In this document: piece after piece, positions 1,683 to 35,971 of the stretch | How the letters are laid out: each line of letters starts with the position of its first letter | Position numbering within the stretch: position 1 is the first letter of the stretch | Assembly: GCA_025056565.1 (NCBI GenBank) | Contig: JANWWA010000006.1 | Coordinates: forward strand, 1-48,101 | DNA length: 48,101 nt | DNA from: Chloroherpetonaceae bacterium | GTDB lineage: Bacteria; Bacteroidota; Chlorobiia; Chlorobiales; Thermochlorobacteraceae | Direction of reading: 5' to 3' | The notes under the pieces: generated by a model | Databases searched by the model: none | The model's input: only the letters and a program-made list of their open reading frames with translations | Told to the model about the DNA's origin: nothing | Translations under genes and position numbers: made by a program

Positions 1683-3071
1683 TTAAAGTGGTGTGTGCTC
1701 GTTGTAAGATTCCAGAGTGCGAACAAGGAACTGCAAGAAGTATCCCGCTAAAGCTCCGTCAATGATGCGGTGGTCATATGAAAGCGAAAGATACATCATT
1801 GAGCGGATGGCAATCACGTCGGTGTCATCGTCCAGTGTTTTCACTACAGGGCGCTTGACAATTGCACCCGTGCCCAGAATCGCTACTTGCGGCTGATTGA
1901 TAATCGGGGCACCGAAAAGATTGCCAGTTGTGCCATAGTTGGTGATGGTAAATGTGCCACCTTGGATTTCATCAGGCAAAAGCTTTTTGCTGCGAGCCCG
2001 CGCGGCAAGGTCTTGCACGGCGCGCGCCAAGCCTACCAGATTCTTCTCGTCTGCACCTTTGATAACAGGCACAATCAGCCCACCTTCGCCACGCTCACCT
2101 AGCGCCACTGCAATACCGATGTTGATATACTTCTTGATAATAATCTTGTCGCCTTCGACCGAAGCATTGAGCATAGGGAATTCTTTCAAACTCTTGACCA
2201 CTGCATCAACAAAGAAGGGCGTGTAGGTAAGCTTGATGCCATTTGTAGCCTCGAAGGTCGCTTTCTTCGCTCTGACAAGGCGGACGAGACCCGTTACATC
2301 GGCTTCGGAGACTGAGGTAACATGCGCTGAGGTTTGCTTGGAGCGCACCATATGCTCGGCAATCAGCTTGCGCATGTGATCCATCTGAATGACCTCAGCG
2401 CGGTTAGCATCATAGACGACTGGTGCAGGAGGCGGAGTCGGCTTTGCAGGCTCAGGTGCAGGAGGCGTGGGAGCTGGGCGAGTTTCGACCCTTGCCGCGG
2501 CGGATGCGGTAACAGGAGCAGGTGCAGCAGAAGGCACAGACGGAGCAGCCGGAGCGGTCGGGAGCGTGCGACCAGACTTGAGGTAATTGAGCACATCATT
2601 TTTTGTAACTCGTCCCCCGATACCAGTGCCGGGAATTCGGTTTAACTCCTGCATTGAAATACCTTCCTCTTGAGCGATACGCATCACAACAGGCGAGTAA
2701 AAACGGTTGCCGACAGGTGTATCGGCAGTGGCAGGCCGGTTGCCATTTGAATGTGGTGAGGCAGGAGAGAAAGCAGCGGGTGCAGTCGCAGAGGCGGGCG
2801 TAGGGGGAGTAGGCGACATAGCGGCGCTGACGTCTGTTTCAATGCGCGCAACCGTTGTGCCAATTGGCACAACGGTTCCTTCGGCAAAGAGAATTTCGGC
2901 AACGATGCCACTTGCAGAGGAGGGTACATCGGTGTCAATCTTGTCCGTGCTAATGCGAAGCAGGTTTTCGTCCTTCTGGATAGGGTCACCCACTTTCTTA
3001 TACCACTCCAAAATTGTGCCTTCCATGAGGCTTTCGCCCATTTTCGGCATTACGATATCAACTTTTGCCAT
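1683..3071 (-). CDS. 2-oxoacid dehydrogenase complex E2 (dihydrolipoamide acyltransferase)
   Basis: Acyltransferase core of a 2-oxoacid dehydrogenase complex, 462 residues. One N-terminal lipoyl domain (about 1-80) carries the lipoylation site Lys in STDKIDTDVPS. An Ala/Pro-rich linker follows, then an E3/E1-binding domain (about 125-165, with RIAQEEGISMQEL and GTGIGGRVTKNDV), a second Ala/Pro linker, and the catalytic domain ending in SYDHRIIDG with catalytic His434 and Asp438. Whether the substrate is pyruvate, 2-oxoglutarate or branched-chain oxoacids cannot be told from this gene; no E1 or E3 gene is adjacent. It heads the run E2, DUF4259, lipA. It is divergent from the polyketide synthase gene, with 179 bp between them. 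Confidence 0.93.
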   Translation of the reverse strand: MAKVDIVMPKMGESLMEGTILEWYKKVGDPIQKDENLLRISTDKIDTDVPSSASGIVAEILFAEGTVVPIGTTVARIETDVSAAMSPTPPTPASATAPAAFSPASPHSNGNRPATADTPVGNRFYSPVVMRIAQEEGISMQELNRIPGTGIGGRVTKNDVLNYLKSGRTLPTAPAAPSVPSAAPAPVTASAAARVETRPAPTPPAPEPAKPTPPPAPVVYDANRAEVIQMDHMRKLIAEHMVRSKQTSAHVTSVSEADVTGLVRLVRAKKATFEATNGIKLTYTPFFVDAVVKSLKEFPMLNASVEGDKIIIKKYINIGIAVALGERGEGGLIVPVIKGADEKNLVGLARAVQDLAARARSKKLLPDEIQGGTFTITNYGTTGNLFGAPIINQPQVAILGTGAIVKRPVVKTLDDDTDVIAIRSMMYLSLSYDHRIIDGALAGYFLQFLVRTLESYNEHTPL

Positions 3072-3250
3072 ATAGTTAATTAACTGTTTAGTTACGGGGG
3101 AGAGTTACTATGCAAGGGTGAATATAGAAAAAAAGCGTTCTGCTAAAAAATTGTGCATAGCTCTAAGCTAGACAAGTGCGGTGAGGTCGCAAAGAAACTG
3201 TTAGCTGTGCTTTTGGCTTTATTAGGGGTAGGAACTTTTAAGCAAACGGT

Positions 3251-22342: not shown

Positions 22343-22447
22343 ATGATTGCAGCGCCCATCGCTTGCGCCATCTAAAAGTTTTGAGCAGAGCGTGTATCTT
22401 TACAGTGTTGCAGCCACTTTTTCCCAAATCGCAAACAACCACAACCG

Positions 22448-22753
22448 ATGAAAACGCCACTTCTCTCGGACGCCGAAATTCAAGCACGTCTTGCTACGCT
22501 CAAAGGCTGGACGGTCAATGGAAAAGTGCTTGAAAAGAAATTTTCCTTTCCCTATCAAAAGGGTGAGCTTAGCCCATTTATGAAAGGCTTACTCTTAGTG
22601 GAGCGCATTGCTGCGCTTGCCGAAGCAGCAGACCATCACCCTGACATTACGCTCACCTATCCAGCCGTAACTGTGCAACTTACCACACATGACTCTGGGG
22701 GACTAACGGAAAAGGACTTTAAGCTCGCTGCACAAATTGATGCCATCACATAG
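22448..22753 (+). CDS. phhB: Pterin-4a-carbinolamine dehydratase
   Basis: A 101-residue enzyme that dehydrates 4a-hydroxytetrahydropterin, recycling the pterin cofactor of aromatic amino acid hydroxylases. The full family signature is visible: AEAADHHPDITLTYPAVTVQLTTHDSGGLTEKDFKLA, with the paired catalytic His residues in DHHPD and the later His in TTHDSGGLT. Length is normal. No hydroxylase gene (phhA) is nearby. Some green sulfur bacteria make glycosylated pterins, so a role outside phenylalanine hydroxylation is possible here. Confidence 0.94.
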   Translation: MKTPLLSDAEIQARLATLKGWTVNGKVLEKKFSFPYQKGELSPFMKGLLLVERIAALAEAADHHPDITLTYPAVTVQLTTHDSGGLTEKDFKLAAQIDAIT

Positions 22754-22996
22754 CTTTCACAGTGCGCTTCAAATGTTGCAAGCGCTGCACAAAGTGCCTT
22801 GTGCTTGAAATGGGTGTGTTTGCTACCACTATCTCTGAGGCACAAGAGACGCCTAACTGCGCCGGACAAAGAGCTGAAAGACCTGCTTTGTCCAAGTATT
22901 TTCCTCACAGGCTTTGGCTGAACTGAGTTAGCTGCCTTTTTGAAATGCAAACGAGTGCAGTGTATCTTGCGCTGCTCACTAAACAAACGCTGGCTT

Positions 22997-23464
22997 ATGG
23001 AGACGCAAACGATTTCGCAATATGAATTGGAAAGAGGAAAACCTGTGCCACGCTTCAAACACGCGCTCGTTCAAGGTAACTTAATCGCCGCGCTCTCTTC
23101 GCATAGAGACCGTTATAGCATCTTGCCAGAATTGGATCTTGAGCTAAATGGCAAGCCCTTTGTGCCCGATATCTGCGTCTATCCAAAACGCACAGTGAAT
23201 TGGACAGCCGAAGAAGGCCCAATGACCGAACCCCCTCTGCTTTCTATTGAAATTATTTCCCAAAGTCAAACCATTGATGAGCTTATCCGTCGTGCAGAAG
23301 CCTATCTGGCAGCGGGCACGAAGGCTGCTTGGGTCGTGGTGCCCTCGACGCAAACGATTTTTGTGCTGAAGCCGAATGCGAAAATTGAAGCCTATACGAA
23401 AGGCATCATCAGAGACAATGCCACTGGTATTGAAATCAATGTGGAAGAGGTCTTTCGCTCGTAA
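22997..23464 (+). CDS. Uma2 family (DUF820) putative nuclease
   Basis: A 155-residue protein of the Uma2 family, which has a PD-(D/E)xK-like restriction endonuclease fold but no proven general function. Matching blocks are the N-terminal YELERGKPVPRFKHALVQGNL, DLELNGKPFVPDICVYP with the acidic residue after PFVP, EPPLLSIEIISQSQTIDELIRRAEAYLAAGTKAAWVVVP, and the final strand. The ATG at 22997 (METQTISQYE) is preferred because the upstream open frame lacks family similarity. Uma2 genes are typically abundant and mobile in cyanobacteria and this group; a second, broken one lies at 28148-28584. Confidence 0.8.
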   Translation: METQTISQYELERGKPVPRFKHALVQGNLIAALSSHRDRYSILPELDLELNGKPFVPDICVYPKRTVNWTAEEGPMTEPPLLSIEIISQSQTIDELIRRAEAYLAAGTKAAWVVVPSTQTIFVLKPNAKIEAYTKGIIRDNATGIEINVEEVFRS

Positions 23465-23543
23465 CTCCGAAAAATGAAGGGCAAGTTTCTGCCTACCCCT
23501 TCCTCTATTTACTTCCCAATTCTCGCTTCTTGCCTCTCAATTC

Positions 23544-24530: not shown

Positions 24531-24581
24531 TGGTTTATTGCAATAACGGTAAAAAACGCCCTGTGTACCCTCATCATTGCT

Positions 24582-24607
24582 CCCCTCTCCTTTGAAAAGG
24601 AGAGGGG
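24582..24607. repeat. GC-rich palindromic repeat within the cobalamin cassette
   Basis: A perfect 12-bp inverted repeat (CCCCTCTCCTTT and AAAGGAGAGGGG) with a 2-nt centre. It belongs to the same family as the palindromes at 27846-28730. It lies between the second and third genes of the cassette and could form a hairpin in the mRNA that affects relative expression or decay. A partial copy of the 18-bp repeat (TTGCAATAACGG, 24538-24549) is 33 bp away. Confidence 0.8.
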
Positions 24608-24626
24608 GTTGCGAATAAGGTTGTCC

Positions 24627-27064: not shown

Positions 27065-27342
27065 TTTCACCACTGGGTTTTTTCTGCTTTGCCTTCGCAG
27101 GACGGCTTAGAGCAGGCGGCTATCTTTCTTCTCGCTTGGGTGCAATCTGAGTCTGGTCGCTCAGCTATTTCTAACGCTTTTTTCCCTTCGTGATGTGAGT
27201 CGTCGCAAAGGCGCTTCGGGAATACTCTTTCAAGCGAAATCAGCTACTTCTTTGCTCACGGATTGCCCACGAAAGCTTTTGCAGACAGGTTTTCACTGAG
27301 ATACGTTGCCCAACGATGGTCCCGTCGTTGTACTGGCAAGTA

Positions 27343-27531
27343 TGGTTCGGCAGGTCTCCTGACTTCTCGCGTGCTTTGTGAAGCCGTCTTCCCAAAAGCG
27401 TTTTGGGGCGCTTCCAGTGACCGCTTCGCTCTGATGCGAGTTACAGTTGCGGGCACAGTTCCCGACTACATCGCTCACCATAGCGACTTCACGGGATTCC
27501 CTATTCTCCCCTTCTTTGGGGCACCGAACCA
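27343..27531 (-). promoter_or_regulatory. Cobalamin (adenosylcobalamin-type) riboswitch aptamer
   Basis: Read on the minus strand. The closing stem P1 is perfect: TGGTTCGG (27524-27531) pairs with CCGAACCA (27343-27350). The conserved B12 box AAGTCAGGAGACCTGCC lies at 27349-27365, the core element GCCCGCAACTGTAA at 27441-27454, and the 5' GGGAATCCCGTG segment begins at 27501. A GGTCACTGG segment near 27413-27421 provides the L5 region. A hairpin (27311-27330) with loop CGGGACCA follows and could form the kissing contact with GGTC of L5. The 278-nt stretch to the first gene shows no clear intrinsic terminator, so control of translation is more likely than early termination. Confidence 0.95.
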
Positions 27532-27557
27532 GCTTTTGAAAGAACTGTTTTGCTCCG

Positions 27558-27588
27558 CAAAGTTAACACGCTGCAAAGGCTTATCAAA
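27558..27588 (-). promoter_or_regulatory. Bacteroidetes-type promoter of the cobalamin-riboswitch operon
   Basis: On the minus strand TTTG (27585-27588) is followed after exactly 19 nt by TAACTTTG (27558-27565), a full match to TTTG-N19-TAnnTTTG. The expected start is near 27551, about 20 nt before the 5' strand of the riboswitch P1 stem, exactly where it should be. Confidence 0.85.
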
Positions 27589-27845
27589 ATCTCGACCCTT
27601 TTAACACAACGCTTTCTTATTACTGCGGCTTATTCGGAAACATTTAGCGGAATGCAGCTACTCACTTTTTGCACACACCCGGCCACTCTGACTTGACTGT
27701 TTTTGCGAAATTTACGCCGATACACAACGCTGTCAAACCCTACCGTTCCCCCGTGTTTCAACCGAAAATCTCATCACCAATGCCTAAGGAAAATGTGATT
27801 CGCAAGAGCGTGCTCCCGATACGCTAACCGTGCCTTAAACACACC
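27589..27845. other. Intergenic stretch with no feature seen
   Basis: About 257 bp between the riboswitch promoter and the palindromic repeat cluster. I see no coding frame with good character, no tRNA and no strong hairpin. Confidence 0.4.
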
Positions 27846-27870
27846 TCCTCTCCTTACAAAAAAGAGAGGA
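27846..27870. repeat. Palindromic repeat, diverged copy
   Basis: Imperfect inverted repeat with TCCTCTC (27846-27852) and GAGAGGA (27864-27870) around CTTACAAAAAA. It is the first of three palindromes of one family within 130 bp and appears to be a decayed copy. Confidence 0.6.
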
Positions 27871-27890
27871 ATAGGTGGGTGAGTCAATTC

Positions 27891-27913
27891 CTCTCTCCTT
27901 GCAAAGGAGAGAG
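27891..27913. repeat. Palindromic repeat, second copy
   Basis: Inverted repeat CTCTCTCCTT (27891-27900) and AAGGAGAGAG (27904-27913) around GCA. It has the same layout as the neighbouring copies but a CTCTCTCC arm instead of CCCCTCTCC. Confidence 0.7.
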
Positions 27914-27950
27914 ACCTACGGGTTACAGTAAGCATAACCTTAGCAGGTCG

Positions 27951-28019
27951 CCTCCCCTCTCCTTACAAAGGAGAGGAGCCGGGGTGAGGTCAGCCCAACT
28001 TGATTTCATCGGCTAAAAC
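27951..28019 (+). repeat. Direct repeat unit, left copy (palindrome plus moxR-like tail)
   Basis: A 69-bp unit made of the CCTCCCCTCTCC/GGAGAGG palindrome, then CCGGGGTGAGGT, then GCCCAACTTGATTTCATCGG and CTAAAAC. A near-identical 70-bp copy lies at 28661-28730 in the same orientation. The tail includes TTGATTTCATCGGCTAAAA (28000-28018), identical to bases 35607-35625 within the MoxR ATPase gene. Confidence 0.85.
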
Positions 28020-28147
28020 CATGTTGAGTTCAACGACTAACCAGCCTTATTCTTATGCCCAAAAGCATTTTAGAGCTGAAACGCCTTGCTTTTATAACTT
28101 GCGGGCTCTGACGGGAGCATAAAAATGAAAGGAAATGAGGAAACCTT

Positions 28148-28584
28148 ATGCTCACGGTAGACGAAATCAAGCGAATAGGCATCCACGCGCCGAAAGAGTA
28201 TCAGCGTTTGATTGCAACGCTTATCATTGCGCTTGGCAATCTATATCGCTCAGGGAAAATCCAGTTAGAGCCACTTCCCGAAACGATGCTCAACGAGGGA
28301 CAAACCAGTCCTGTGACTGATATTATGCTATTTGATAACGAGCGCGATGAAACGCCTATTATCATTGAAATTGCGCACGGCACGGGTGTCAAATCCGACC
28401 AAATCAAAGTGAAGGAGCTGGTAGCAAGCAATTTCTACGGCATCCGTGAAGCCTTCATTTACGATTACAAAAACAAGCGTTGGCACATTGGCACAAGTAT
28501 ATCAAGAGGAAAGGCTTTGCAACCGAACGCGTTTCGCTCAGCGACATTTTGCAGCTTGATTTTAATATGTTTCTTTTGCAATAA
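28148..28584 (+). pseudogene. Uma2-like nuclease gene with a frameshift
   Basis: From the ATG at 28148 the frame reads as a Uma2-related protein: MLTVDEIKRIGIHAPKEYQR, SPVTDIMLFDNERDETPIIIEI and ASNFYGIREAFIYDYKNKRWHIGT. At about 28493-28496 similarity moves to the -1 frame, which continues KYIKRKGFATERVSLSDILQ and ends LDFNMFLLQ at TAA 28582-28584. That is the expected C-terminal end of the family. The original frame instead runs into repeat DNA until 28699. The stop codon lies inside a copy of the 18-bp repeat (28576-28593). The gene is bracketed by two 69-70 bp direct repeats. A sequencing or assembly error remains possible. Confidence 0.65.
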
Positions 28585-28593
28585 CAGAATTTT
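28576..28593 (+). repeat. Dispersed 18-bp repeat, copy 4
   Basis: Exact TTGCAATAACAGAATTTT. It overlaps the end of the frameshifted Uma2 gene and supplies its stop codon (the TAA in GCAATAACAG). Palindromic repeat sequence begins a few bases downstream. Confidence 0.8.
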
Positions 28594-28660
28594 CTCTCCT
28601 CTTACAAAGGGGAACGGTCAGCTCCCCTCTCCACGAGAGGTCAGGGGTGAAGTCACCTTT

Positions 28661-28730
28661 CCTCCCCTCTCCTTACAAAGGAGAGGGGCTGGGGGGTGAG
28701 GTTGCCCAACTTGATTTCATCGGCTAAAAC
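28661..28730 (+). repeat. Direct repeat unit, right copy (palindrome plus moxR-like tail)
   Basis: A 70-bp copy of the unit at 27951-28019, with only a few differences (for example a CTGGGGGG tract). The perfect palindrome is at 28664-28688. The tail again contains TTGATTTCATCGGCTAAAA (28711-28729). A degenerate related stretch (28602-28660) lies immediately to its left. Confidence 0.85.
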
Positions 28731-28752
28731 TAAGTGAATAAAACGCCTTAAA

Positions 28753-29464
28753 ATGAACCACTGGCTAGCGCTAAGCATAGAGTATGCCAATCAGCGCTCT
28801 TATCTTGATGATCTTTTCCAAGTTTATCCGACAATCCCAGAGGGCATTAGAGATATCAGTCCAGAACAGTGGGACAAGGTAGAAAAAGCGTTCAAGCATA
28901 AAAATAATAATGCTTTATTCGAGAACTCTTGTAACTTCAAAAGACAGTTACATTGCTTATCTTAAGCGTGATCTTTCTGCAATTGAGCGTAATCCTACGA
29001 CCGTTAATCAGCCAAAGGAAACCAATCGTCAAATTGGTCCGTTTTTCCGACGCTGGCTCAACTCTAAAGCGTTAGGTATCACACCTGTAACACTCGATGA
29101 ATTCACAAAGAGCAAGAAAGACGCTATCTTAGACGGAAGTGACAAGCAACTAATGGATTTTGCTCATCAAGAGTTAAACTATAAACATCATAAAGGTCTT
29201 GATTTTATTGGTCGCTTTAACGGCAAGTATGTGATTGGAGAAGCCAAGTTCCTAACTGATTTTGGTGGTCATCAAAATGCACAGTTTAATGATGCAATTA
29301 GCGTCTTAAAGGTTAGAAATGTAAAGGCTATAAAAATTGCTATTCTTGATGGCGTGCTTTACATTAGGGGAAAGACCAAAATGTATAAGCAGATTACTAC
29401 TGAATACAAGAATTTGAACATTATGAGTAGCCTCGTGCTTCGTGAATTTCTATACCACTTATGA
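28753..29464 (+). pseudogene. Type II restriction endonuclease gene, frameshifted
   Basis: Two overlapping frames together read as one restriction enzyme. The first begins MNHWLALSIEYANQRSYLDD and continues through VYPTIPEGIRDISPEQWDKV to about 28930. The second takes over by about 28950 with DSYIAYLKRDLSAIERNPTT and runs to the stop at 29464. The second part holds the likely PD-(D/E)xK site: Asp in GLDFIGRFNGKYVIGEAKF with the E-x-K of GEAK. From memory of the family, about 20 residues also seem missing between NPTTVN and PKETNRQIGP. The end overlaps the methyltransferase start as ATGA, the normal layout of a restriction-modification operon. The local DNA is clearly AT-richer than its neighbours. 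Confidence 0.65.
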
Positions 29465-30630
29465 CTATGCAGCTTTCTTACCCAAACAAAAAGACTGAAC
29501 AGGAAATCTTCGACAGCATTCCTGACATTGAGCTTGAGCAAGTAAACGAAAGCAGCAGTCCGAACCTGCTCATTCACTCTGAGAACTTAGTTGCGCTAAA
29601 ATGTCTCATTACGAAGCATAACCTTGCTGGAAAAATTGATTTGATTTACATAGACCCACCGTTTGCAACCAGCAATGTTTTCAAAATAACAGGCAGCCGC
29701 GCCAACACAATTAGCAATAGTTCTGCCGGCGCCGTTGCATATACCGACCATCTCAAAGGCGCTGAATTTATTGAGTTTCTTCGTGAGCGACTTGTGCTGC
29801 TGAAAATTCTGCTGTCTGACAGAGGCTCAATCTACCTGCATACTGACTACAAAATTGGGCATTATGTAAAAGTCGCAATGGACGAAATTTTCGGCATTGA
29901 AAATTTCAGAAACGACATTACTAGAATCAAATGCAATCCTAAAAACTTTGCCCGAAAGGGCTATGGAAACATCAAAGACCTCATCTTGTTCTACTCAAAG
30001 TCAGACAATTTAATTTGGAATGAACCCAAACTTCCATACACCGAAGCAGACAAGGTCAAGCTTTTTCCCAAAGTTGATAAAGACGGTCGGCGATACACGA
30101 CAATTCCACTTCACGCGCCTGGAGAAACCCAAAACGGGAAAACTGCACAAGCCTTCAAGGGTATTTTACCGCCATCTGGCCGACATTGGCGTAGCGACAT
30201 ACAGACTTTGGAACAATGGGACAAAGCAGGCCTGATCGAATGGAGCGAGAGCGGCACTCCGCGAAAAAAAATTTACCTTGATGAGCAAGATGGAAAGCGC
30301 GTGCAAGATATCTGGGAGTTCAAAGACCCACAGTACCCCACCTACCCAACTGAAAAGAATTTTGACTTGCTTAACTTAATTGTACGCACTTCCTCTAACG
30401 AAAATAGCATTGTATTAGACTGCTTTGCTGGCTCAGGCACAACTTTGAAAGCCGCCCAAATTAATGGGCGGAAATGGATTGGCATTGACCAATCCGATGC
30501 AGCAATTAAGGCAATTACTCGAAAACTTGATGCTGTGGAAGATAACCTGTTTGTCTCAAAGCCTGATTACAAATTTTTAGTCGAAAAGCGGACACAAGGT
30601 CACCTAAACCTACTTTGCTATGACGCTTAA
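29461..30630 (+). CDS. Site-specific DNA methyltransferase (N4/N6, beta-class motif order), type II
   Basis: A 389-residue amino-methyltransferase. Catalytic motif IV (IYIDPPFATSN, DPPF at 65-68) comes before the SAM-binding motif I (VLDCFAGSGTT, FAGSGTT at 322-328). This is the beta-class order, with the target recognition region between them. Motif X-like residues (EKNFDLLNLIVRTSS) precede motif I. The gene appears intact. Its ATG overlaps the stop of the broken restriction gene by four bases (ATGA). It probably now acts as a solitary methyltransferase that protects or marks a site once cut by its partner. Adenine versus cytosine specificity and the recognition sequence cannot be read from the protein. 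Confidence 0.9.
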   Translation: MTMQLSYPNKKTEQEIFDSIPDIELEQVNESSSPNLLIHSENLVALKCLITKHNLAGKIDLIYIDPPFATSNVFKITGSRANTISNSSAGAVAYTDHLKGAEFIEFLRERLVLLKILLSDRGSIYLHTDYKIGHYVKVAMDEIFGIENFRNDITRIKCNPKNFARKGYGNIKDLILFYSKSDNLIWNEPKLPYTEADKVKLFPKVDKDGRRYTTIPLHAPGETQNGKTAQAFKGILPPSGRHWRSDIQTLEQWDKAGLIEWSESGTPRKKIYLDEQDGKRVQDIWEFKDPQYPTYPTEKNFDLLNLIVRTSSNENSIVLDCFAGSGTTLKAAQINGRKWIGIDQSDAAIKAITRKLDAVEDNLFVSKPDYKFLVEKRTQGHLNLLCYDA

Positions 30631-30988
30631 TAGCGCGCTATTTTGCCTAAACCGTCCACCAGTTGTGCTGCGGATTTGGCTGTATATTTTGCTTGCTTGG
30701 CTTTTACTCCTACCTGCTGAACTGCGGGCACAAAGTAGCCAAAGACCTCATACCTTCCACTCCTTGCTTCTTTCGCATCAAGGTAAGTGGGTGATGTGGG
30801 ACGGCGCCGGATTGCGCAATAGTGTCTTCAAACTCAAAGCTGTCCAAGAGGATTACATTGCCTTGCAGTGGTCAGAAGACAAAACTGGGATTTTCGAATA
30901 CATCATTCCGCTCCAAAGCATTCACCACCTTGTCCTTACCCAAACCGATACCCTTCAGCTTGTTACCTACCACCGCATAGCACGATAG
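30620..30988 (+). CDS. Small exported protein, unknown function
   Basis: A 122-residue protein whose start overlaps the methyltransferase end by 11 bp. A hydrophobic segment (WLYILLAWLLLLPAELRAQ, about residues 20-38) looks like a signal peptide with cleavage after RAQ. The rest is a small beta-rich domain (HQGKWVMWDGAG, DYIALQWSEDKTGIFEYIIP) that I do not recognise. The overlap suggests co-transcription with the methyltransferase, but the protein has no visible link to restriction or modification. Confidence 0.5.
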   Translation: MTLNSALFCLNRPPVVLRIWLYILLAWLLLLPAELRAQSSQRPHTFHSLLLSHQGKWVMWDGAGLRNSVFKLKAVQEDYIALQWSEDKTGIFEYIIPLQSIHHLVLTQTDTLQLVTYHRIAR

Positions 30989-31083
30989 GTCTTTCTGCAG
31001 AGCTTTCACAAGGATTATTTGCGCACTTTAAGAGCTACCACATTGCTCTTCAATGCCAGCGTTCAGCTAAAGGGTCTTACCCT

Positions 31084-32133
31084 TCATCGTGAATGCTGAC
31101 CCGCTTCACAATAGGAGTGGGATTGCGTGAGCATTTGCCGACGCGCTTCTGCGATTTCCTCTGCCAAATACGTGGCTTCAATCACACTCTTTGGATTTGC
31201 AATGCCTTTGCCTGCAATGTCGAATGCCGTGCCATGGTCAGGCGAGGTGCGCACAATCGGCAGTCCTGCTGTTACATTGACGCCGGTTTCAAATGCCAGC
31301 ATTTTGAAAGGAATTAAGCCTTGGTCGTGATACAGCGCTAGCACGGCATCGAAGTGCTTGTAGTGCTTCGCCCCAAAGAAACCATCAGCCGCAAAGACTC
31401 CACTGACTTCAAACTCTTTCTTCAACGCATCCAGCTCAGGCTGAATCCACTCAACTTCTTCTCGCCCAATTACGCCGTTATCCGATGAATGAGGATTGAG
31501 TCCCAAGACGGCAATCTTTGGCGACCGAATGCCAAAGTCACGTCGTAAGGCTTGCACCAGTGAAGCGATATGTGGTCGCAATCCTCCTGAGGCTCTCAGC
31601 GTTTCGGAGACCTCTCTAAGTGGCACATGCACCGTTGCCAGCGCAACTCGCAGTTTTGTGTGCCTATCAGCCAGTATCATCTGTGCTTTGGCATTGTAGC
31701 CTTCTTTTCTGCAAAGAAATTCCAGAAAGTCCGTATGCCCTTGAAACGCATATCCAGCCGCCTGAATTGCCTCTTTGTGAATCGGTGCAGTGACCATCGC
31801 ATCGGCCTTGCCTGCAAGACAGAGCTTTGCAGCAGTTTCGATTGCTTGCATGGACAGCGCGCCTGCATCCGCTTGCACCGTGCCCACTTTCATCTTGATA
31901 GGGCACGACAGACTTAGCACATAAAGCCGTTCATTGGAGAGCGGCAGCCCATCCAGCGAATGGATTTCTTCAATCGGCACTTGAAAGCCCAGCTCTTTTG
32001 CATAGAACTTCATCACACAGTAAGAGCCAACCACAATGTAGCAATGCTCACTTTGACGCCGTGCCTTAAACGCTTTGAGAAGAATCTCCGGACCAATGCC
32101 GTTGGCATCGCCGTGCGTCCAAAGAATGCGCAT
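31084..32133 (-). CDS. pdxA: 4-hydroxythreonine-4-phosphate dehydrogenase
   Basis: NAD-dependent enzyme of the DXP-dependent pyridoxal phosphate pathway, 349 residues. Characteristic segments are the N-terminal HGDANGIGPEILLKAF, the metal-site region AYKHFDAVLALYHDQGLIPFKM-like (here HYKHFDAVLALYHDQGL), and NVTAGLPIVRTSPDHGTAFDIAGKG. The ATG at 32133 (MRILWTHGD) fits the family; a TTG-initiated extension to 32163 would overlap the upstream DUF4293 gene. It follows that gene with a gap of 4 bp. Confidence 0.95.
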   Translation of the reverse strand: MRILWTHGDANGIGPEILLKAFKARRQSEHCYIVVGSYCVMKFYAKELGFQVPIEEIHSLDGLPLSNERLYVLSLSCPIKMKVGTVQADAGALSMQAIETAAKLCLAGKADAMVTAPIHKEAIQAAGYAFQGHTDFLEFLCRKEGYNAKAQMILADRHTKLRVALATVHVPLREVSETLRASGGLRPHIASLVQALRRDFGIRSPKIAVLGLNPHSSDNGVIGREEVEWIQPELDALKKEFEVSGVFAADGFFGAKHYKHFDAVLALYHDQGLIPFKMLAFETGVNVTAGLPIVRTSPDHGTAFDIAGKGIANPKSVIEATYLAEEIAEARRQMLTQSHSYCEAGQHSR

Positions 32134-34972: not shown

Positions 34973-35971
34973 TTATGGCACAGGCACAGCGTTCAGCACC
35001 TTTCGGATAATCTCCTCAGGCTGAATTTCCTCCGCTTCAGCCTCATATGTGAGAATAATTCGATGCCGCATCACATCGTAGGCAACGGTTTTGACATCTT
35101 CTGGCGTTGTGTATCCGCGCTGATTGAGAAAAGCGTGCGCACGTGCCGCCAGATTCAGATAAATCGTGGCTCGTGGTGATGCACCGTAGGCAATCAAATT
35201 TTTCAAATCACTTAGTCCTACTTTTTCAGGCTCACGGGTAGCAAAGACCACATCTACGATATACTGCTCCACTTTTGGGTCAATATAGACTTCATTTACT
35301 ACCTTGCGTGCCCTTAGAATGTCATCGGGCATCACGACCGGTTGAATTGGCTCTGGCGGCTCGGTGCGTGCCATTCGACGCATAATTTCCAACTCTTCGT
35401 CGCGCGTCGGATAGCCCACTTTGAGTTTCATCATAAAGCGATCGACCTGTGCTTCTGGTAGAGGGTAAGTGCCTTCTTGCTCGACAGGGTTCTGGGTTGC
35501 CAAGACGAGAAACGGTGAATCCAGCTTGTAAGTCTCCTCGCCAATTGTAACTTGCCTCTCTTGCATCGCTTCCAGCAACGCTGATTGCACCTTTGCAGGT
35601 GAGCGATTGATTTCATCGGCTAAAATGATGTTGGCAAAAATTGGGCCTTTTTTGGTGTAAAAGCGCATATCTTTCTGGTTGTAAATCATTGTGCCGATGA
35701 GGTCTGCTGGCAGGAGGTCAGGCGTAAATTGAATGCGCTGAAACTTCAAGTTGAGCGCTTTAGCTAAGGAGCTAACCGTCAGAGTTTTTGCCAGCCCAGG
35801 CACTCCCTCTAACAAGATATGCCCATTGGTTAGCAAGCCAATCAGCAAACGATTAATCACATAGTTCTGCCCAACGACGACTTTGGCAATTTCGGCACGC
35901 AAGCGATGCACGAATTCCGATTCTTGCCGAATTTTTGCATTCAGTTCTTCAATTGATGCGGCTGCAAGCAT
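34973..35971 (-). CDS. MoxR family AAA+ ATPase
   Basis: A 332-residue chaperone-like ATPase. Walker A is GVPGLAKT (56-63) and Walker B is ILADE (116-120, in NIILADEINRSPAK). Sensor 1 (LATQNPVEQEGTYPLPEAQ) and the arginine-finger region (DRFMMKL) follow, along with the C-terminal lid containing SPRATIYLNLAARAHAFLNQRGYTTPEDV. MoxR proteins usually work with VWA-domain and DUF58 partners; none is in the window. The neighbouring 97-residue membrane protein lies 24 bp upstream. Bases 35607-35625 encoding the Walker B region are identical to the tail of the direct repeats at 27951 and 28661. Confidence 0.94.
   Translation of the reverse strand: MLAAASIEELNAKIRQESEFVHRLRAEIAKVVVGQNYVINRLLIGLLTNGHILLEGVPGLAKTLTVSSLAKALNLKFQRIQFTPDLLPADLIGTMIYNQKDMRFYTKKGPIFANIILADEINRSPAKVQSALLEAMQERQVTIGEETYKLDSPFLVLATQNPVEQEGTYPLPEAQVDRFMMKLKVGYPTRDEELEIMRRMARTEPPEPIQPVVMPDDILRARKVVNEVYIDPKVEQYIVDVVFATREPEKVGLSDLKNLIAYGASPRATIYLNLAARAHAFLNQRGYTTPEDVKTVAYDVMRHRIILTYEAEAEEIQPEEIIRKVLNAVPVP

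Follow-up and report, generated by a model that had tools for sequence, protein, structure and literature searches.

Intrastrand triplex motifs (TM, earlier PIT) are G/C-rich repeats that have been described in E. coli and in cyanobacteria. In a TM the stem has 6-15 nt and the loops have 1-6 nt, and a third strand is the mirror image of the purine arm, with one mismatch tolerated above 7 nt (PMC4666352). Holder et al. (2015) list E. coli motifs such as CCCTCTCCCTGTGGGAGAGGGCCGGGGTGAGGGC, which lie in variable regions averaging 2,966 nt and near which transposase remnants were not found (PMC4666352). For the E. coli copy a stable triplex forms in vitro and in single strands only, none being stable in vivo; the published work ties the motif to instability while leaving the mechanism open, and according to earlier work cited there the motif has neither promoter nor terminator activity (PMC4666352). 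Other described systems resemble the repeats considered here in particular respects. REP and BIME elements, with their RAYT transposase, are likewise short palindromic repeats, clustered and mostly intergenic; MITEs are likewise short, non-coding and dispersed, with inverted ends such as our repeats show in composite form; and integron-like gene cassettes likewise place one gene between two direct repeats.

We find that the window, by which we mean the whole stretch of 48,101 nucleotides that was analysed, contains two direct repeats that are probably locally duplicated copies of this instability-linked triplex-motif family, the motif and 27 nt having been copied around a gene that was broken separately (Table 1). 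The repeats occupy positions 27951-28019 (69 nt) and 28661-28730 (70 nt) in the same orientation, with a spacer of 641 bp; an earlier note on this DNA had described two near-identical direct repeats with this separation, and both coordinates and alignment agree. The copies do not differ over 26 nt in their 5' part, show small indels and a few substitutions around the GGGTGAGGT junction in the middle, and are the same again over the 27 nt GCCCAACTTGATTTCATCGGCTAAAAC at the 3' end, so that the anatomy proposed in the note (a hairpin, GGGTGAGGT and a common tail) is seen in both. In 100 dinucleotide shuffles of the window the palindrome and tail gave a mean of 0.00 matches, and chance is excluded as the origin of either. 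The two repeats are the best pair of a cluster, with degenerate hairpins of the same family nearby, and the 641 bp, which the note had taken to carry only the broken gene, also hold a degenerate motif directly upstream of copy 2.

Table 1. Features of the triplex-motif locus (positions are those of the window)
Feature	Position	Strand	Basis or remark
Variable segment	27546..31171	.	Flanks conserved in both same-genus genomes; interval absent beside them
Degenerate triplex-motif relative	27845..27883	+	Weak model match, 21 bits, E 0.0099; 2 mismatches to palindrome
Same-family hairpin, like the second hairpin of the composite repeat	27887..27914	+	1 mismatch to palindrome; predicted stem
Triplex-motif copy 1, partly decayed	27951..27991	+	Covariance-model match, 52.6 bits; predicted hairpin
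Parts of copy 1	Pyrimidine arm 27954-27963, purine arm 27969-27978, third strand 27981-27990	+	
27-nt tail copy 1, local flank outside the dispersed element	27993..28019	+	Genome-unique apart from copy 2
Broken, divergent Uma2-like gene	28148..28584	+	50-57% identity to intact ~142-aa homologues; 8-bp tandem duplication
Decayed composite motif, two short hairpins, directly upstream of copy 2	28590..28654	+	Model match, 34.6 bits, E 7e-7
Triplex-motif copy 2, perfect	28661..28703	+	Covariance-model match, 60.5 bits; predicted hairpin
Parts of copy 2	Pyrimidine arm 28664-28674, purine arm 28678-28688, third strand 28693-28703	+	
27-nt tail copy 2	28704..28730	+	Same letters as tail copy 1
Tsp45I-like restriction endonuclease gene, two frames, within variable segment	28753..29464	+	PF06300 positions 1-58 and 62-260 in two ORFs
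N6/N4 DNA methyltransferase gene, intact, within variable segment	29461..30630	+	PF01555, E 1e-41

Read 5' to 3', the element consists of CCCCTCTCCTT, a loop, AAGGAGAGGGG, a second loop and GGGGTGAGGTT; a single strand thus carries, in order, a pyrimidine arm, a short loop, a purine arm, another short loop and a purine-rich third stretch that mirrors the purine arm (GGGGTGAGGT). Judged by its sequence, the element is the G/C-rich intrastrand triplex motif known from earlier work on E. coli and cyanobacteria. Scoring the third-strand mirror by reverse-Hoogsteen rules (G on G, A or T on A), we find 11 of 11 Watson-Crick stem pairs and 11 of 11 reverse-Hoogsteen positions in copy 2, with loops of 3 and 4 nt, and 9 of 10 of each in copy 1, with loops of 5 and 2 nt; both copies fall within the published limits for stem, loops and third strand (PMC4666352). 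When only the post-hairpin sequence was shuffled, an equal mirror score arose in about 1% of trials per copy, which alone is modest evidence, given that some of the sequence is just rich in G. Homology to the E. coli motifs is the stronger evidence: a model built solely from copies found in this genome and in its family, with no E. coli sequence, hits motifs 1, 2, 10 and 11 of E. coli at the coordinates given for them in the paper (E 3e-7 to 2e-3; two E. coli regions tried). In the E. coli motifs (TMECO), too, pyrimidine arm, purine arm and mirror third strand follow in this order, and the letters are near-identical (CCCTCTCCC..GGGAGAGGGCCGGGGTGAGGG); they are likewise dispersed, with no transposase nearby (PMC4666352), and the variable regions in which they lie have a counterpart at the one locus described here. 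They differ from the repeats described here in that our stem reads CCCCTCTCCTT, in that our motif is often one part of a composite of 75-105 bp that has one or two hairpins more and inverted ACCTCACCC/GGGTGAGGT ends, and in that it is copied here along with local flank, around a gene. We also considered an intrinsic terminator, and rejected it; the perfect copy was not scored as a hairpin plus T-run, and the three terminator-like sites are at about the level of shuffled sequence.

The 70-bp unit falls into two parts: an element of about 42 nt that is dispersed through the genome, and a flank private to this locus. Across the genome as a whole (2.92 Mb, 75 contigs) we find 37 strand-wise matches to the palindrome at three mismatches or fewer, and 29 matches, at roughly 17 distinct sites, to a covariance model that covers the palindrome and GGGTGAGGT; many of the genome copies are longer composites of 75-105 bp with one or two extra hairpins, and the full ones have inverted ends, ACCTCACCC...GGGTGAGGT. 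Of the two same-genus genomes compared, G001 has 57 matches to this model and G002 has none, copy number thus differing among close relatives (29, 57 and 0 in three genomes of one genus), and the model gives 28 and 11 matches in two further relatives (G007 and G004, respectively). By exact pattern the motif is present in Cyanobacteria, Bacteroidota, Ignavibacteria, Chloroflexi and Patescibacteria. A repeat dispersed in this bacterial family, in Cyanobacteria, in Bacteroidota and in others is now tied to the E. coli triplex motif. The 27-nt tail, with up to three mismatches allowed, has two matches only in the genome, both at this locus, and as exact strings its 26-nt core is absent from the genome_contigs collection and its 23-nt core from viral contigs; we regard the tail as private flank because it is absent elsewhere in the genome. 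The dispersed element of about 42 nt bears out the idea, put forward in the earlier note, of a non-coding unit that recurs, but of the 70-bp unit only the palindrome and GGGTGAGGT part is found at dispersed sites in the genome, the tail being confined to these two places. We note that on the opposite strand a 26-nt piece of a moxR-like gene in the window (35607-35632), apparently the part that codes for Walker B, shows 92% likeness to the tail (E 4e-4 in one genome), which may be chance or an old gene fragment.

The distinction between element and flank bears on whether one 70-bp non-autonomous element, MITE- or REP-like, was inserted twice and independently at this locus, as the earlier note had suggested. 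The dispersal of the first ~42 nt and the inverted ACCTCACCC...GGGTGAGGT ends of full composites speak for such an element. The tail, however, is missing from all other genome copies and from genome_contigs, which largely refutes this reading; it is only the first ~42 nt that are dispersed. Moreover, no target-site duplication is seen, and the sequences to the left and right of each copy are unlike. A search of this genome for the Y1 or REP-associated transposase (Y1_Tnp, PF01797) gave no match, the control search being positive in 5 of 14 known genomes. Two independent insertions are, in our judgement, very improbable. A RAYT/REP system was likewise rejected, there being no Y1 transposase in the genome. 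Compared with REP and BIME elements, then, the repeats described here have a third triplex strand and lack a PF01797 gene in their genome; compared with MITEs, they lack a visible target-site duplication, and a partner transposase was not identified in a genome-wide search that covered PF01797.

The gene enclosed by the repeats has lost its frame at an 8-bp tandem duplication within it (TTGGCACA twice, 28480-28495). It is an ordinary event of the slippage type, for which we see no link to either repeat, and it is this internal duplication, rather than the insertion of repeats as had been proposed, that accounts for the frameshift. Homologues in relatives are intact, with about 142 aa, and are 50-57% identical to the enclosed gene. 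The window ORF has no hit to Uma2 (PF05685), and four intact homologues score 15.9-23.9 bits against that family, below the Pfam cut-off of 27; the label Uma2-like appears fair for the enclosed gene by remote similarity only, and falls short of a proven Uma2 assignment. Most likely the enclosed gene is an ordinary accessory gene in decay, at an unstable site next to a restriction-modification system, and its frameshift is of separate origin. We note that in this Tsp45I-like pair (28753-30630) the endonuclease gene is split near 28910-28965 and the methyltransferase gene is whole, which may reflect decay or an assembly error.

That one gene is enclosed by direct repeats of 69-70 bp could also mean that the locus is a cassette, in which a single-gene module between direct triplex-motif repeats integrates, and is excised as a circle, through recombination between the repeats. 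If so, the motif might be expected beside related genes, yet pattern and model searches of relatives found it within ~1.5 kb at none of ten loci with intact homologues, and at none of 30 Uma2 loci of the family and its neighbours. Uma2 genes are thus rejected as general partners of the motif, the mobile Uma2 cassette of the earlier note is left without support, and, for the gene family, relatives carry the gene without the repeats, a finding that the note had named in advance as a refutation. Further points against a cassette are that no recombinase gene is seen in the segment, that the common segment begins inside a motif cluster, at the 5' arm of a hairpin, and that contents between neighbouring copies are heterogeneous and often non-coding. 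A plasmid or phage origin was considered and rejected, no match to either being found. The likeness to integron-like cassettes is limited in the same way, since an integrase was not identified in the segment and the motif is mostly free of cargo and inconsistent in the cargo that it has.

The motif site at this locus is a variable segment. Its left flank, which runs to 27,545 and has a cobalamin riboswitch at its end, and its right flank (from 31,172, pdxA) are conserved in G001 and G002 and are not adjacent there. Past the riboswitch all three genomes are unlike one another; upstream of pdxA, G001 and G002 are collinear, which makes this genome derived on the pdxA side. The sequence that formerly adjoined pdxA is on contig C8 in this genome, and a covariance-model census found no motif on that contig, the other side of the pdxA junction, so that motif-to-motif recombination is not visible in the pdxA rearrangement. 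At 3.6 kb, the segment is close in size to the 2,966-nt average around E. coli motifs, a comparison that concerns this locus in three genomes. Elsewhere in the 48-kb window there are more synteny breaks, near 22.4 and 34.2 kb, with no strong motif there. We also note that the riboswitch (27332-27543, minus strand), the last conserved stretch before the variable segment, lies upstream of a DUF5074/NHL protein gene, and that a true Uma2 gene (22940-23464) lies inside the synteny break at 22400-23500 relative to G001, to which the nearest motif is a weak model match at 24579-24622.

Duplication of the motif together with its flank is found at other loci. We took a census of motif copies less than 3 kb apart, at loci from public genomes and from this genome, and find that 6 of 52 same-locus pairs share a 3' flank (score of at least 40), compared with 9 of 1712 different-locus pairs, an imperfect control in that several of its flank-sharing pairs involve a single genome or an adjacent motif. 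Tandem arrays of G001 were excluded from this statistic (13% contamination, runs of N). The six flank-sharing pairs, five of which are direct, come from Bacteroidota, Ignavibacteria, Patescibacteria (two) and this genome (the window and contig C26). On contig C26 (5142-6400, locus L230) a true Uma2 gene lies between direct repeats of ~185 bp (147 nt at 88% ungapped, about 185 nt gapped), each made up of two composite triplex elements and a common short spacer; in Ignavibacteria (L163, 5855-6973) motif-plus-flank direct repeats 1,077 bp apart surround ORFs of 173 and 68 aa. Otherwise the content between neighbouring copies is mixed, consisting of small ORFs or apparently non-coding DNA. Listing what lies between copies, as the earlier note had proposed, therefore reveals no common cargo, although the Uma2 gene of C26 is bracketed in like fashion. 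It is because of C26, with repeats of the same kind around a true Uma2 gene, and of L163, with repeats around two small ORFs, that we keep the cassette as a minority reading, albeit an unlikely one. A wider version, to which we give slightly less credence still, would have triplex motifs act as junctions for recombination or copying that gather and shuffle small accessory genes, amounting to a recombinase-free cassette system across several phyla. Were that true, modules of 0.4-1.1 kb (Uma2-type nucleases, two-gene modules) would be bracketed by motif-plus-flank repeats and lost or passed on. We note that the two ORFs of L163 look like a two-gene accessory module.

Flank-sharing local duplications are common near clustered motifs, as might also be the case if unequal crossing over at such motifs had given rise to a plain tandem segmental duplication of motif and tail, the remainder of which was lost or diverged and in which the triplex played no role. 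However, no other repeat of at least 13 nt links 27546-28150 to 28151-31171, and because nothing else is repeated at that length, near-total loss of a larger duplication would be required; we consider this quite improbable, although the genomes compared here are compatible with it as well as with the reading that we favour.

We thus favour local copying of a known, instability-linked triplex motif along with part of its flank, and infer the following course of events. Single-stranded motif DNA may stall replication or repair; the nascent strand could then re-anneal at another copy of the motif and read on into the flank, and the motif would be copied with a short neighbouring piece, here 27 nt. 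Re-annealing and read-on of this kind would give a sharp-ended direct repeat with a tail that is found nowhere else. Recombination or copying between repeats, as raised in the earlier note, is a fair idea, but the 70-bp mobile element and the Uma2 cassette to which it was attached are unsupported. A motif duplicated locally with a short unique flank, recurring in several genomes, is a concrete footprint, and it provides a testable clue to how these motifs destabilise the chromosome, a matter left open in the 2015 paper.

Lastly, we note two further associations. DUF559-like (Vsr-fold) ORFs lie tightly between triplex-motif pairs in two phyla (L143, 5145-5704; L163, 5227-5896); DUF559 nuclease genes, considered as candidate partners of the motif, are found close between motifs at 2 of 80 motif loci, and 16 DUF559 loci of the class gave weak model hits only. 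On contig C15 (~2507-3140; locus L228, 8-638) an array of CRISPR-like repeats (ATTTCAATCCCACATTGGTGCAATTAGAAT), at least 10 in number, lies ~1.3 kb away from two triplex motifs, and near this array an inverted motif pair surrounds two ORFs resembling DNA glycosylases.
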